Assembly (NCBI GenBank): GCA_945902755.1
Contig: CAMDNC010000012.1
Location: 1-38,946 of the forward strand
Reading direction: 5' to 3'
DNA from: Flavipsychrobacter stenotrophus
GTDB lineage: Bacteria; Bacteroidota; Bacteroidia; Chitinophagales; Chitinophagaceae
Length of the DNA stretch: 38,946 bases
In this document: one piece after another, positions 5,531 to 38,852 of the stretch
How the letters are laid out: each line of letters starts with the position of its first letter
Numbering within the stretch: position 1 is the stretch's first letter
Position numbers and translations under genes: made by a program
The notes under the pieces: model-generated
The model's input: the letters and a program-made list of their open reading frames with translations, nothing else
The model's database searches: none
Told to the model about the DNA's origin: nothing

Positions 5531-5576
5531 AAAAAATCGGGGTCATCTTATATCGACAAGATGACCCCGATTTTTT
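5531..5576. terminator. Bidirectional intrinsic terminator
   Basis: A perfect inverted repeat: the arm ATCGGGGTCATCTT (5536-5549), an 8-base loop, and its exact complement at 5558-5571. It is flanked by A6 on the left and T6 on the right, so the stem extends to about 19 bp and has a U-tract on either strand. It lies between the lipoprotein gene (+) and trxB (-), whose stops face each other, and should end both. Confidence 0.95.
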
Positions 5577-11016: not shown

Positions 11017-12318
11017 TTATCCGGCAAAAATCTGCTCGAGTGCCCATGCTTTAAGTAGTCTTTCTTCCCATTCGCTTTCGGCAACACTGTCGTACGTTAT
11101 AGCCCCACCGGTCTCGTAGGTTAGCAAATGGGTAATACTGTTGTAAAATAGGCTCCGGATAATAACGTTGAAATCGAAATCGCCGTTGGGCGTGACGTAG
11201 CCTACCGTGCCTGAAAACAGCTCTCTGCTATTGTGTTCGTAGGTGTCTATCAGCTCCATTACTTTATACTTAGGTGCTCCTGTCATACTACCCATAGGGA
11301 AAGAACTGCGAATAGCATCTGTGAAGGACGCATTAGGTAGCAACTTTCCGCTAACGGTAGATATCATTTGGTGTACCTGTGGGAAACTGTATATGCCAAA
11401 AAGTTCGTCGACAGAAACACTCCCTGCTACACAACACCGGGCGAGGTCATTGCGTGTTAGGTCTACAATCATCACATTTTCTGCTCTTTCTTTTGTGCTA
11501 TTTAGCAGTGCTCGTTTTAGCATGTCATCTGTACCTGTGTCCTTGCTGCGTCTTGCTGTACCTTTTATGGGTTGAGATAGTATCTGATCTCCTTCTTTGC
11601 GAAGGTATCGCTCGGGACTGGCACACATTAAGTGCAGATGATTGAGACGATAGTAAGCGGCAAAAGGAGCAGGAGAAAGTTTGTTGAGTGCGTTAAAAAC
11701 GTTCAGTGCATCAACATCGGCGTTAGTGCAGCTGGCACCAGTACAATAATTTATTTCATAGCAGTCTCCCTCTAGTATATGGTTTCTTAGTTGGTTGATT
11801 GTATCGATGTAGCTTCCACGGTGTGTAGTAGGAGTGAAGGTTAGTACTGGTAGTATGGTGCTTTCTGATTGCATCTCATCAGTCAGAATAAGTAGGTTGT
11901 AAATGTCATCTACATCTTCATATGTTTCAATAGTGAGTAATTCCTTTGAGCTATTTATATAGCATACAGTGCTTGGTATAAAAAACTGTAATAACGGATA
12001 ACCGTGTATTGGTTTGTGAGTTGCTGTAAGTTTTGGTTCCAGATTGTTTTTGTAGTCATAACTTATGTGGCCAAATAACCAATCAGGGTAAGAATCATGT
12101 ATTTCTTGTAGTTGCTTTAGAGGGTCTGTAGAGTCATTAGCTACCATTTGTGCTACACCTACTGCAAGCAAACATTCGTATCTACTGTAGGCTGATGAAT
12201 AGTTATTACTATCTAAAAAAGCAAGAACGCTGAATTGTTTTGCCCAATTCAGCATTCTTGCTTTAAGTATGCCCGAATGTTCGGGCAATATTTTATATAC
12301 TTTTTTACTCCTTTGCAA
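11017..12318 (-). CDS. pabB: Aminodeoxychorismate synthase component I
   Basis: 433 residues of the chorismate-binding family. The PIKGT motif (250-254, with Lys252) is diagnostic of PabB; anthranilate synthase TrpE has PIAGT. FPMGSMTGAPK and the C-terminal YETGGAITYDS complete the active site. With a glutaminase (PabA), not seen here, it converts chorismate to 4-amino-4-deoxychorismate for folate. The start used is a TTG at 12318; the next candidate is an ATG at 12255 (residue 22). The conserved LNWAKQF...FLDSN begins right there, so either is possible. The N-terminal coding region holds a terminator-like hairpin (12218-12264) and an inverted repeat (12271-12286). Confidence 0.92.
   Translation of the reverse strand: MQRSKKVYKILPEHSGILKARMLNWAKQFSVLAFLDSNNYSSAYSRYECLLAVGVAQMVANDSTDPLKQLQEIHDSYPDWLFGHISYDYKNNLEPKLTATHKPIHGYPLLQFFIPSTVCYINSSKELLTIETYEDVDDIYNLLILTDEMQSESTILPVLTFTPTTHRGSYIDTINQLRNHILEGDCYEINYCTGASCTNADVDALNVFNALNKLSPAPFAAYYRLNHLHLMCASPERYLRKEGDQILSQPIKGTARRSKDTGTDDMLKRALLNSTKERAENVMIVDLTRNDLARCCVAGSVSVDELFGIYSFPQVHQMISTVSGKLLPNASFTDAIRSSFPMGSMTGAPKYKVMELIDTYEHNSRELFSGTVGYVTPNGDFDFNVIIRSLFYNSITHLLTYETGGAITYDSVAESEWEERLLKAWALEQIFAG
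12215..12264 (-). terminator. Intrinsic-terminator-like hairpin inside pabB
   Basis: On the - strand, the arm at 12264-12245 (AAAGCAAGAATGCTGAATTG), a 7-base loop, and the arm at 12237-12218 form a 20-bp stem with a single G-U pair. T6 runs from 12220 to 12215. It lies 138 bases beyond the stop of the charged-protein gene and inside the first 35 codons of pabB. The alternative pabB ATG at 12255 is within the stem. It could end transcripts from upstream or act as an attenuator for pabB. Confidence 0.8.
12271..12286. repeat. Short perfect inverted repeat next to the pabB hairpin
   Basis: GCCCGAATGTTCGGGC has perfect 7-base arms around two bases. As RNA it would form a 6-bp hairpin with a 4-base loop, immediately before the longer terminator-like hairpin on the - strand. 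Protein operator or RNA element cannot be distinguished from sequence. Confidence 0.7.
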
Positions 12319-12401: not shown

Positions 12402-12848
12402 TTAAAAATCATCATCGTCGTCGTCAAAACCGCCGGAGCCTTCACTAAAGAAGCCAAGATCTTTGAATTCGTCGTCAACATCAAAATCATCATCTTTTGC
12501 AGATTTTTTCTTTGGCGATTTTGATTTTGATTTTGGCAAATCAAATTCTTCGAATTCTTTTTCTATATCGAAGTCGTCTTCATCTTTATTGAAGTCATCA
12601 TCCTCTTCGATATCGTCGATGTCATCATCATCATCGTCGTCGTCGTCATCTACTGGTTTCTTCTTTTTAGATGAGGGTGCTGCTTTTTTTGAAGGTTTTG
12701 CAGGAACCTCGTCCAAATCGTCTTCTAATTCGTCATCCTCATCCACTTGACTTTTTTTAGTCTTCGGTGCACTTTTTTTAGATGCCGGAGCTGCGTCTTT
12801 AGATGCGCTCTTTTTCGTTGCTACTTTCTTACTTGGATTTGATTTCAT
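12402..12848 (-). CDS. Disordered block-polyampholyte protein (Lys blocks and Asp blocks)
   Basis: 148 residues with no foldable domain. Basic Ser/Lys/Ala blocks (1-33, 51-65, 106-118) resemble histone H1-like tails and alternate with very acidic blocks (35-48, 67-105, 119-130). Residues 67-76 are ten Asp in a row. The C-terminus is GGFDDDDDDF: a run of six Asp ending in a terminal Phe, similar in kind to the acidic DDDxPF tip of single-stranded DNA-binding protein. Such a protein should be fully disordered and could bind nucleic acids and basic partners. Function is unknown. It sits between purA (84 bases upstream) and pabB on the same strand. The first terminator-like signal after it lies within pabB. 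Confidence 0.75.
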   Translation of the reverse strand: MKSNPSKKVATKKSASKDAAPASKKSAPKTKKSQVDEDDELEDDLDEVPAKPSKKAAPSSKKKKPVDDDDDDDDDDIDDIEEDDDFNKDEDDFDIEKEFEEFDLPKSKSKSPKKKSAKDDDFDVDDEFKDLGFFSEGSGGFDDDDDDF

Positions 12849-12932: not shown

Positions 12933-14198
12933 TCAAATAACTATTAGTTGGTCTCTACCAGTGCCGTTAGAAATATGAGAAATTTTAGCATTAAGGTACT
13001 GCTCAATAAACGTACAATATTCTTTGAATGTTTGTGGTAGCTCATCATAATTGTTACATTCACTTATGGGTTTCTCCCAGCCATCAAAAGTACTATACAC
13101 TGGTGAAATTGGAGCATCACAGATATCAAAAGGCATTTGTGTAGTGGTTTCTCCATTCACTGTGTAGGCCGTAGCGGCCTTGATAGGGCTAAAGCTGTCC
13201 ATAACGTCTGTTTTTGTAATGATGAGTTTGGTTACCCCGCTCAGCATCACAGCGTAGCGTAGTGCCACCAGATCTAACCAGCCACATCTTCGAGGTCTGC
13301 CAGTAGTAGCACCAAATTCATGACCCGCTGCGCGTAAAGCTTCGCCAGTAGCATCTTCCAGCTCAGTAGGGAAAGGTCCGCTACCAACTCTGGTACAGTA
13401 CGCTTTTGTGATTCCATATACCTCGCCAATGCGAGCAGGTGCAACACCCAAACCACTGCAAACACCTGCGGCTATGGTATTTGATGAGGTTACAAATGGA
13501 TAGGTACCAAAGTCTATGTCCAACATACTTCCTTGCGCACCTTCTGCTAGTATTTTTTTGCCAGCTTTCAAATGTTCATCTAACCAATACTCTGCATTTA
13601 CGATTTGCAAAAAGCGCATACGCTCCACAGCATCAAAGAATGGTTGTTCCCATTGCTCCCATTCTGTAGCAGCTCCTGGGTATTGGCGCAGCATTTGCAA
13701 ATGTTTTTGTTTTAGCTTATTGTATTTGTCGATAAAGTTTGGCGATAGTATGTCGCCAACTCTTAGTCCATTTCGGCCAGTTTTATCCATATAAGCTGGT
13801 CCAATACCTTTGAGTGTGGAACCAATTTTATCTACACCCTTTGCTGATTCAGAGGCAGCATCCAGCGCTCTGTGTGTGGGGAGTATCAGGTGTGCCTTTT
13901 GAGATACAAATAATCGTTTTAGTAGGTCTGGACAAAGGGGTATAATTTTGTCTATTTCAGCTTTGAGTGTAACTGGGTCTATAACAACTCCATTGCCTAT
14001 CAGATTAAGACAATGGGACTGGAAAACACCTGAGGGAATGGTATGCAGTACTACTTTTTTACCATCGATGTACAATGTGTGTCCAGCGTTTGGACCTCCC
14101 TGAAATCTGGCAATAATATCATACTTACCAGCAAGGAAATCTACTATTTTTCCCTTGCCTTCGTCGCCCCATTGCAATCCCAACAAAATATCTATCAT
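12933..14198 (-). CDS. purA: Adenylosuccinate synthase
   Basis: 421 residues, normal length. The N-terminal GLQWGDEGKGKIVD is the GTP/IMP-binding P-loop signature, and the family's GPNAGHT, ERAR-like and TGRPRRCGWLD motifs follow in order. It joins IMP and aspartate with GTP hydrolysis in the first step from IMP to AMP. The ATG at 14198 is followed directly by the P-loop, as usual. A -7 element lies 56 bases upstream and a hairpin lies in the leader. The charged-protein gene follows after 84 bases with no terminator visible, so the two may share a transcript. Confidence 0.97.
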   Translation of the reverse strand: MIDILLGLQWGDEGKGKIVDFLAGKYDIIARFQGGPNAGHTLYIDGKKVVLHTIPSGVFQSHCLNLIGNGVVIDPVTLKAEIDKIIPLCPDLLKRLFVSQKAHLILPTHRALDAASESAKGVDKIGSTLKGIGPAYMDKTGRNGLRVGDILSPNFIDKYNKLKQKHLQMLRQYPGAATEWEQWEQPFFDAVERMRFLQIVNAEYWLDEHLKAGKKILAEGAQGSMLDIDFGTYPFVTSSNTIAAGVCSGLGVAPARIGEVYGITKAYCTRVGSGPFPTELEDATGEALRAAGHEFGATTGRPRRCGWLDLVALRYAVMLSGVTKLIITKTDVMDSFSPIKAATAYTVNGETTTQMPFDICDAPISPVYSTFDGWEKPISECNNYDELPQTFKEYCTFIEQYLNAKISHISNGTGRDQLIVI

Positions 14199-16144: not shown

Positions 16145-16167
16145 TTTATTCATAAATAATCATTTGG

Positions 16168-16198
16168 AAAGGGTGTCTTGCAAAAGACACCCTTTTTT
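16168..16198 (+). terminator. Intrinsic terminator of the cold-shock gene
   Basis: AAAGGGTGTCTT (16168-16179), loop GCAA, and the exact complement AAGACACCCTTT (16184-16195) make a 12-bp perfect stem with a GNRA-type tetraloop, followed by more T. Confidence 0.95.
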
Positions 16199-22326: not shown

Positions 22327-22349
22327 TTTTTTAAATTCTATTTATAGTG

Positions 22350-22380
22350 TTAGCCCCACCATATTGGTGGGGCTAATTTT
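22350..22380 (+). terminator. Intrinsic terminator of rpsL-rpsG
   Basis: TTAGCCCCACCA, loop TAT and the exact complement TGGTGGGGCTAA form a perfect 12-bp stem followed by TTTTG. Confidence 0.93.
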
Positions 22381-38600: not shown

Positions 38601-38684
38601 TTAAATAGTATTTAAGTTTTTTTTGATATAGGTTTTGTGTGTTTGAGTGGCGTGTGAGTATGAGGCGAGTGATGAGTGTGTGTG

Positions 38685-38720
38685 GCAGGGGCTTCTGCCG
38701 ATCTGAAGTCCCTGCTTTTT
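38685..38720 (+). terminator. Terminator-like hairpin, array unit 1
   Basis: GCAGGGGCTTC pairs with GAAGTCCCTGC over 11 positions, with one G-U, around a 9-base loop, then TTTTT. An alternative shorter hairpin (GGCAG...CTGCC, 38684-38699) uses the same left arm. Confidence 0.75.
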
Positions 38721-38816
38721 GAACTAACGAGATGAGTTTTGTGATATAGGTTTTGTGTGTTTGAGTGGTGAGAGAGTATGAGGTGAGTGAAATGAGGCGA
38801 GTGATGAGTGCGTGTG

Positions 38817-38852
38817 GCAGGGGCTTCTGCCGATCTGAGGTTCCTGCTTTTT
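38817..38852 (+). terminator. Terminator-like hairpin, array unit 2
   Basis: The left arm is identical to unit 1, and the right arm is GAGGTTCCTGC. The two base changes in the right arm relative to unit 1 both produce G-U pairs, so all 11 positions still pair in RNA. TTTTT follows. Confidence 0.75.

Follow-up and report, generated by a model that had tools for sequence, protein, structure and literature searches.

The pabB locus and its hairpin

The window analyzed here, a 38,946-nucleotide stretch of DNA from Flavipsychrobacter stenotrophus, carries pabB on its minus strand, preceded by a gene for a small acidic-tailed protein and, further upstream, by a gene that we take to be purA (Table 1). 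The acidic-tailed protein was without a match in Pfam and NCBIfam. It is widely kept between purA and pabB, with a first half rich in Lys, Ala and Ser and a tail of acidic residues and Phe/Tyr. SSB has an acidic tail, which the tip of the small protein recalls, and this likeness suggests a nucleic-acid-related, partner-binding protein.

Table 1. Features of the pabB region (strand and positions within the window)
Feature	Position	Strand	Remarks
pabB, aminodeoxychorismate synthase component I (chorismate-binding enzyme)	11017..12318	-	likely TTG start at 12318
U-tract, T6	12215..12220	-	Phe/Leu codons of pabB; at the stem base and just outside it
20-bp hairpin	12218..12264	-	5' arm 12264-12245, loop 12244-12238, 3' arm 12237-12218; pabB codons 19-34
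Small 7-bp hairpin	12270..12287	-	just 5' of the main hairpin; stable here, not general in relatives
Acidic-tailed small protein gene	12402..12848	-	Lys/Ala-rich, then Asp/Glu-rich; ends FDDDDDDF
purA, presumably adenylosuccinate synthase	12933..14198	-	next gene 5' of the acidic gene

The stem of the main hairpin comprises 20 pairs, one of them G-U, and is closed by a 7-base loop. Together with the T6 it occupies codons 19-35 of pabB, numbered from the probable TTG start, and it covers an in-frame ATG at 12255 (codon 4 of the stem). The original prediction had placed such a stem, loop and T6 in the early codons of pabB, which the coordinates and the fold confirm, and had noted the enclosed alternative ATG, which the sequence bears out. 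The region 12200-12300 (101 nt) has a folding energy of -42.4 kcal/mol, whereas shuffled versions average -15.7 +/- 3.3 (z -8.1) and none of 200 is as stable. Counting unbroken stems with loops of 3-10 bases, the pabB hairpin is the second longest of the window, exceeded by an intergenic one at 5531-5576. The latter, a 21-bp hairpin flanked by A and T in the gap between convergent ORFs, would be a useful reference terminator for this genome; with 16166-16197 and 22349-22377 it makes up the other long hairpins with T-rich tails between long ORFs. Near-identical 12-bp hairpins with T-rich tails at 38684-38716 and 38816-38848, 132 bases apart, suggest a tandem repeat at the window end (38684-38848).

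A 71-nt hairpin query found a single match in the genome (95% complete) at E<=0.001, and a dispersed repeat or mobile hairpin was rejected since the hairpin is single-copy. No Rfam family matched within the window at gathering score, and neither a riboswitch nor another described RNA family was found there. Sequence features of an intrinsic terminator are present at pabB, namely a GC-containing stem-loop and a U-tract directly after the stem, part of which lies in the stem base. A simple terminator scan, requiring 5 T of 8 after the stem, did not list the hairpin on the minus strand, which counts against a terminator; it was missed because only TTTAGATA comes after the full 20-bp stem and because much of the T-run doubles as stem base. 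Our own terminator criterion allows the U-tract to begin within the stem base. On the plus strand the simple scan listed parts of both inverted repeats, and on the minus strand it listed no other terminator site from the acidic gene to pabB, in keeping with the prediction that none precedes the hairpin.

A tandem-hairpin leader had also been proposed. None of 300 synonymous shuffles matches the stability of the small hairpin in this genome, but the proposal does not extend to relatives in general: local folding of the 39 nt before the stem reached p<0.05 in 6 of 31 members of the genus and in 28 of 155 other relatives. A conserved first hairpin at 12270-12287 was thus rejected as strong here and not general among relatives.

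The -7 motif of Bacteroidota is TANNTTTG. It occurs 63 nt before the purA start and is absent between the acidic gene and pabB in this genome. In relatives, 2 of 106 stretches from the acidic-gene stop to the hairpin contain it (0.24 per kb; shuffles 0.34), as do 13 of 106 stretches upstream of the acidic gene (0.83 per kb; shuffles 0.54), rates that give no clear promoter for either gene. A sigma-70 scan returned 10 matches vs 13.2 expected. A promoter of pabB's own, which the original prediction had not seen after the acidic gene either, is therefore unsupported.

Conservation and covariation of the stem

Relatives were represented by 184 pabB genes with the acidic gene upstream, distinct over 150 nt, and by 11 pabB loci from other families. 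Four of the 184 (L119, L134, L135 and L140) were added by eye after automatic assignment had missed them, and the 11 include L024 and L025, which have an acidic gene upstream. The comparison genomes are mostly drafts, and membership of Chitinophagaceae was taken as named.

At the same codons, 14-20 of the 20 positions pair in 181 of the 184 genes, and the stem was found in more than 60 genus codes (hand count). The pabB genes of other families form 7-16 of the 20 pairs, near chance for the protein. Two loci, L062 and L267, have both acidic gene and pabB with a weak stem, which speaks against a terminator; L267 (genome G229; 10 of 20 pairs) was fetched later and stands outside the 184. In consensus, the element is AUGCUGAACUG-loop-CAGUUCAGCAU with a T-rich run behind it.

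Covariation was assessed in 150 of 176 distinct 54-mers, chosen at random, with L062, L135 and L181 left out (L181 has one extra loop codon and still pairs when folded). Paired cells make up 92.6% of this alignment vs 37-56% after sliding the partner by 1-3 columns, and both sides have changed at 16 of the 20 stem pairs. RNAalifold predicts 15 of the stem pairs. Each of core pairs 8-15 is unpaired in at most 4 of the 150 rows. At the base, pair 4 is lost in 50 rows and pair 5 in 62, a point against termination, and the full 20 bp is therefore not required. On a quick tree of 126 genes (LG+G4, protein after the hairpin only), the minimum changes between Watson-Crick states sum to 106, with 16 at 9/39, 14 at 13/35 and 11 at 18/30.

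The peptide encoded by the stem, K-x-x-M-L-N-W-A-x-Q-F-S, is half palindromic at the codon level, and each gene was therefore compared with synonymous shuffles using its own codon usage. For the first such null, 147 loci were collapsed to 127 distinct ones, of which 126 were used (L022 lacks the region). In the 115 genes with the acidic gene, a median of 18 of 20 pairs was observed vs 15.0 expected, with p<0.05 in 109 by weighted pairing and in 90 by pair number. The corresponding figures in other families are a median of 12 pairs vs 11.0 and p<0.05 in 1 of 11 by each measure. Among all 47-nt windows of a gene, the one at the stem register ranks first in 112 of the 115 genes and in 1 of the 11.

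Amino acids follow the pairing as well. Counting the first Lys codon of the stem as residue 1, the combination at residues 3 and 14 is Q-C in 65, K-F in 47 and R-L in 42 of 184 genes, while Met at residue 4 occurs with Ile at residue 13 in 134 and Val with Thr in 21. Leu5 is CTG with Ser12 in 75 genes and TTG with Asn12 in 61; TTG-Ser occurs in 7. Codon choice outside the stem favors T: Phe16 is TTT in 132 of 149 genes (gene background 0.69; binomial 2e-8) and Leu17 is TTA/TTG in 106 of 171 (background 0.35; binomial 8e-13), neither probability being corrected for relatedness. The T-tract is interrupted by C in many relatives (Leu17 CTN in 65 of 171), which counts against a terminator.

These comparisons show selection on the stem at the RNA level. 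The synonymous null, the covariation and the fold vs shuffles agree with the original prediction that such a stem is unlikely by chance, and the check proposed with it, whether pairing is kept in relatives, came out in its favor through compensatory and synonymous changes.

Loci without pabB and the start of translation

From the stop of the acidic gene to the stem there are ~140 nt in the F. stenotrophus window and mostly 50-100 nt in relatives (median 71 nt, 182 loci). Terminators with a score of at least 20 within 160 nt after the acidic gene were found at 165 of 182 loci where pabB is next (shuffles 13 of 910) and at 11 of 20 loci where it is not (shuffles 0 of 100); at any score, a terminator-like hairpin was present at 13 of these 20 (shuffles 11 of 100). 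The other 7 lack a terminator by the same criterion, which weighs against the terminator reading; in two of them, L239 and L243, convergent gene ends lie within 30 nt. The 182 loci include L024 and L025 and exclude the four genes added by eye. L230 was dropped from the group without pabB because pabB is present there, no acidic gene was found at L232, L235 and L252, and L234, L236, L244, L258 and L259 failed the automatic filter for the acidic gene, even though terminators can be seen at L244 and L258 by eye. Thirteen loci called without the acidic gene, four of which do have it, gave 6 terminator-like matches (3 at a score of at least 20).

At one locus without an intact pabB (L246, genome G103), the first pabB codons persist after the acidic gene up to the stem, where the frame ends, and the remnant keeps a stem of ~20 bp and a T-rich tail. 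No pabB orthologue was found in G103; its one 31% identical relative, on another contig, is taken to be TrpE. L257 (G161) looks like a second pabB remnant with the hairpin, judging by its sequence, and L245 (G063) shows possible further pabB decay with the hairpin left after the acidic gene. Genome searches found no pabB orthologue in G103, G161, G063 or G160, which raises the question of the p-aminobenzoate source of these strains. At L135, pabB is kept and the palindrome lost, with a different stem and T-rich tail at the same place.

The full stem is present at none of the 11 other-family loci. By eye, the upstream ORF end is PurA-like in five (L026, L028, L030, L031 and L094), an acidic gene is upstream in L024 and L025, and four have neither. 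That L024 has an acidic gene and no terminator, and L025 only a weak one, argues against the terminator reading. The stem and the acidic gene may have arisen together, so that loci lacking both say little, and the link to the acidic gene is therefore carried by the loci without pabB, which show from their gene order and hairpins that the hairpin goes with the upstream gene rather than with pabB. The suggestion that pabB contains the upstream gene's terminator is thus strongly supported, by these loci and by the compensatory and synonymous changes.

Over the 45 nt preceding the stem, none of the 184 genes has a stop codon in the pabB frame, and the other two frames are open in 31 and 27. No separate leader ORF of the trp type was found there, only the pabB frame being generally open. 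Up to 15 disjoint close pairs were compared; in these 45 nt, 47 of 89 differences fall at third positions and 42 of 71 changed codons alter the residue, with third-position differences numbering 280 of 459 in the gene body and 12 of 39 in the hairpin codons. Given the open frame and the third-position differences, translation most likely begins 5' of the stem, ~45-60 nt before it and mostly at GTG or TTG. Between 40 and 66 nt before the stem, the 184 genes offer TTG only (78), GTG only (54), both (4), ATG (31) or none (17). The last group, e.g. L068, L077, L090, L102, L107, L110, L158 and L171, includes several genes with CTG or ATT codons, and rarer start codons may serve there.

pabB largely avoids ATG starts. 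An in-frame ATG within 24 codons before the stem is present in 43 of 184 pabB genes, whereas any ATG is available for 110 of 110 purA genes and for 121 of 128 acidic genes by a loose criterion (M then at least 3 K in 16 residues). The any-ATG count was used because the nearest-start count for purA (66 ATG, 38 TTG, 3 GTG) is misleading, Leu TTG codons being read as starts. In other families ATG is available for pabB in 7 of 11.

A proposed dual-coded terminator and its alternatives

We consider it highly probable that the hairpin and U-tract form an intrinsic terminator that ends the upstream transcript and is dual-coded in pabB, and that pabB is expressed by read-through. The same letters would serve as an intrinsic (Rho-independent) terminator, ending transcripts of the acidic gene or perhaps of a purA-acidic gene operon, and as pabB codons 19-35. 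We infer that in vivo RNA polymerase leaving the acidic gene forms the stem and is usually released at the U-tract, and that a minority reads through and transcribes pabB, so that the terminator would also hold pabB low. A terminated transcript would include the start of pabB but no stop codon, and a weak start would reduce the loading of ribosomes onto such stop-less transcripts, which may be the reason for the avoidance of ATG. By its sequence features, the hairpin would belong with operon-internal intrinsic terminators.

In ribosome-mediated attenuators of the trp type, the terminator is governed by translation of the same RNA. A translation-coupled attenuator, in which the stem mainly regulates pabB and a ribosome on pabB melts it and permits read-through, would suit the position of the stem, 45-60 nt after the likely start and in the pabB frame, and the weak start codons, with which initiation could be the variable step. 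We nevertheless regard it as unlikely, as L246 keeps the hairpin without pabB and, of the 20 loci where pabB is not the next gene, 13 still have a terminator-like hairpin after the acidic gene; control of pabB is therefore not its only role. In contrast to trp-type attenuators, the region shows neither a separate leader peptide nor, as far as local folding goes, a competing fold that is generally conserved. Translation, moreover, lowered a terminator 30 bp after a start codon by only ~10% in E. coli (PMC4824070). Attenuation of pabB, as originally suggested, thus stands insofar as the upstream transcript must read through the hairpin, but no evidence of regulation was found; regulation by ribosome loading on pabB is possible.

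A site for RNase III or other processing, or a 3'-end stabilizer, would be a 20-bp duplex separating the mRNAs of the acidic gene and pabB. The length of ~20 bp and a structure conserved over a variable sequence would fit, but we find this improbable: T codons are favored outside the stem, core pairs 8-15 are far better kept than basal pairs 4-5, and hairpin-plus-T terminators replace the stem in many loci without pabB.

Sequestration of a true pabB start at ATG 12255 is very improbable. At codon 4 of the stem, 141 of the 184 genes have ATG and 23 have GTG, and those inspected among the 17 genes without ATG, GTG or TTG at 40-66 nt have ATG or GTG there. However, this codon is ATA in 8, the frame before the stem is open in all 184 with 47 of 89 close-pair differences at third positions, and the identity of residue 4 tracks residue 13 as pairing requires; the original suggestion of start-codon sequestration was abandoned on the ATA codons and the open frame. 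That the palindrome merely follows conservation of the peptide KxxMLNWAxQFS is scarcely credible, for although synonymous shuffling alone gives a median of 15.0 of 20 pairs, the observed median is 18, 109 of 115 genes reach p<0.05 by weighted pairing vs 1 of 11 others, and the residues themselves covary with pairing.

The terminator reading has partial precedents. As reported in PMC4824070, a terminator placed in the first 100 bp of an E. coli coding sequence retains most of its efficiency, and in that system ribosome interference is relieved once the terminator lies >27 nt beyond the upstream stop codon; the geometry at pabB fits both. In a construct of this kind, the upstream gene was expressed at about half its level and recovered when the second start was silenced. 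The engineered tR2 of that system likewise has a stem and U-tract shortly after a start and downstream of an operon gene, and it works, giving transcripts without a stop codon; however, it is an engineered plasmid, whereas the pabB element is natural, spans more than 60 genus codes and shapes enzyme residues. The ABC importers of Ruminiclostridium (PMC9045158, in part) also have an operon-internal terminator before a more weakly transcribed gene, setting gene ratios, but these terminators are intergenic and the pabB one lies in the downstream codons. RNA 3' ends within ORFs occur in E. coli as well (PMC7815308), where the portion consulted ascribes ORF-internal sRNA ends mostly to processing and shows no stem with codon covariation. 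No description of a pabB-embedded terminator was recognized among the matches listed in a search of open-licence PMC articles, a limited scope that makes this weak evidence of novelty. What is unusual for an intrinsic terminator is the place in the codons of a downstream enzyme, the breadth of conservation and the covariation of amino acids.

In a large bacterial family, then, the stop signal of one gene appears, from these alignments, to sit in the codons of the next and to shape its residues: if the terminator is written in the first codons of pabB, RNA base-pairing has shaped the amino acids of the enzyme. A more far-reaching proposal, which we hold only tentatively, is that across Chitinophagaceae the neighbor's terminator in the pabB frame dictates the Q-C, K-F and R-L pairs and keeps the start off AUG, forming a translation-coupled valve in which the ribosome start rate on pabB against RNA polymerase speed would set how much folate-pathway mRNA is drawn from the purine operon.

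The locus would thus provide a natural and widely kept example of a terminator and a conserved enzyme written in the same letters, with residues that covary because their codons pair. Such residue covariation could pass for protein contacts, and elements of this sort would escape terminator searches that leave out coding sequence. A testable reason is offered for non-AUG starts, namely limiting the translation of terminated, stop-less transcripts, and pabB may provide a clean system for the race between ribosome and polymerase in Bacteroidota.
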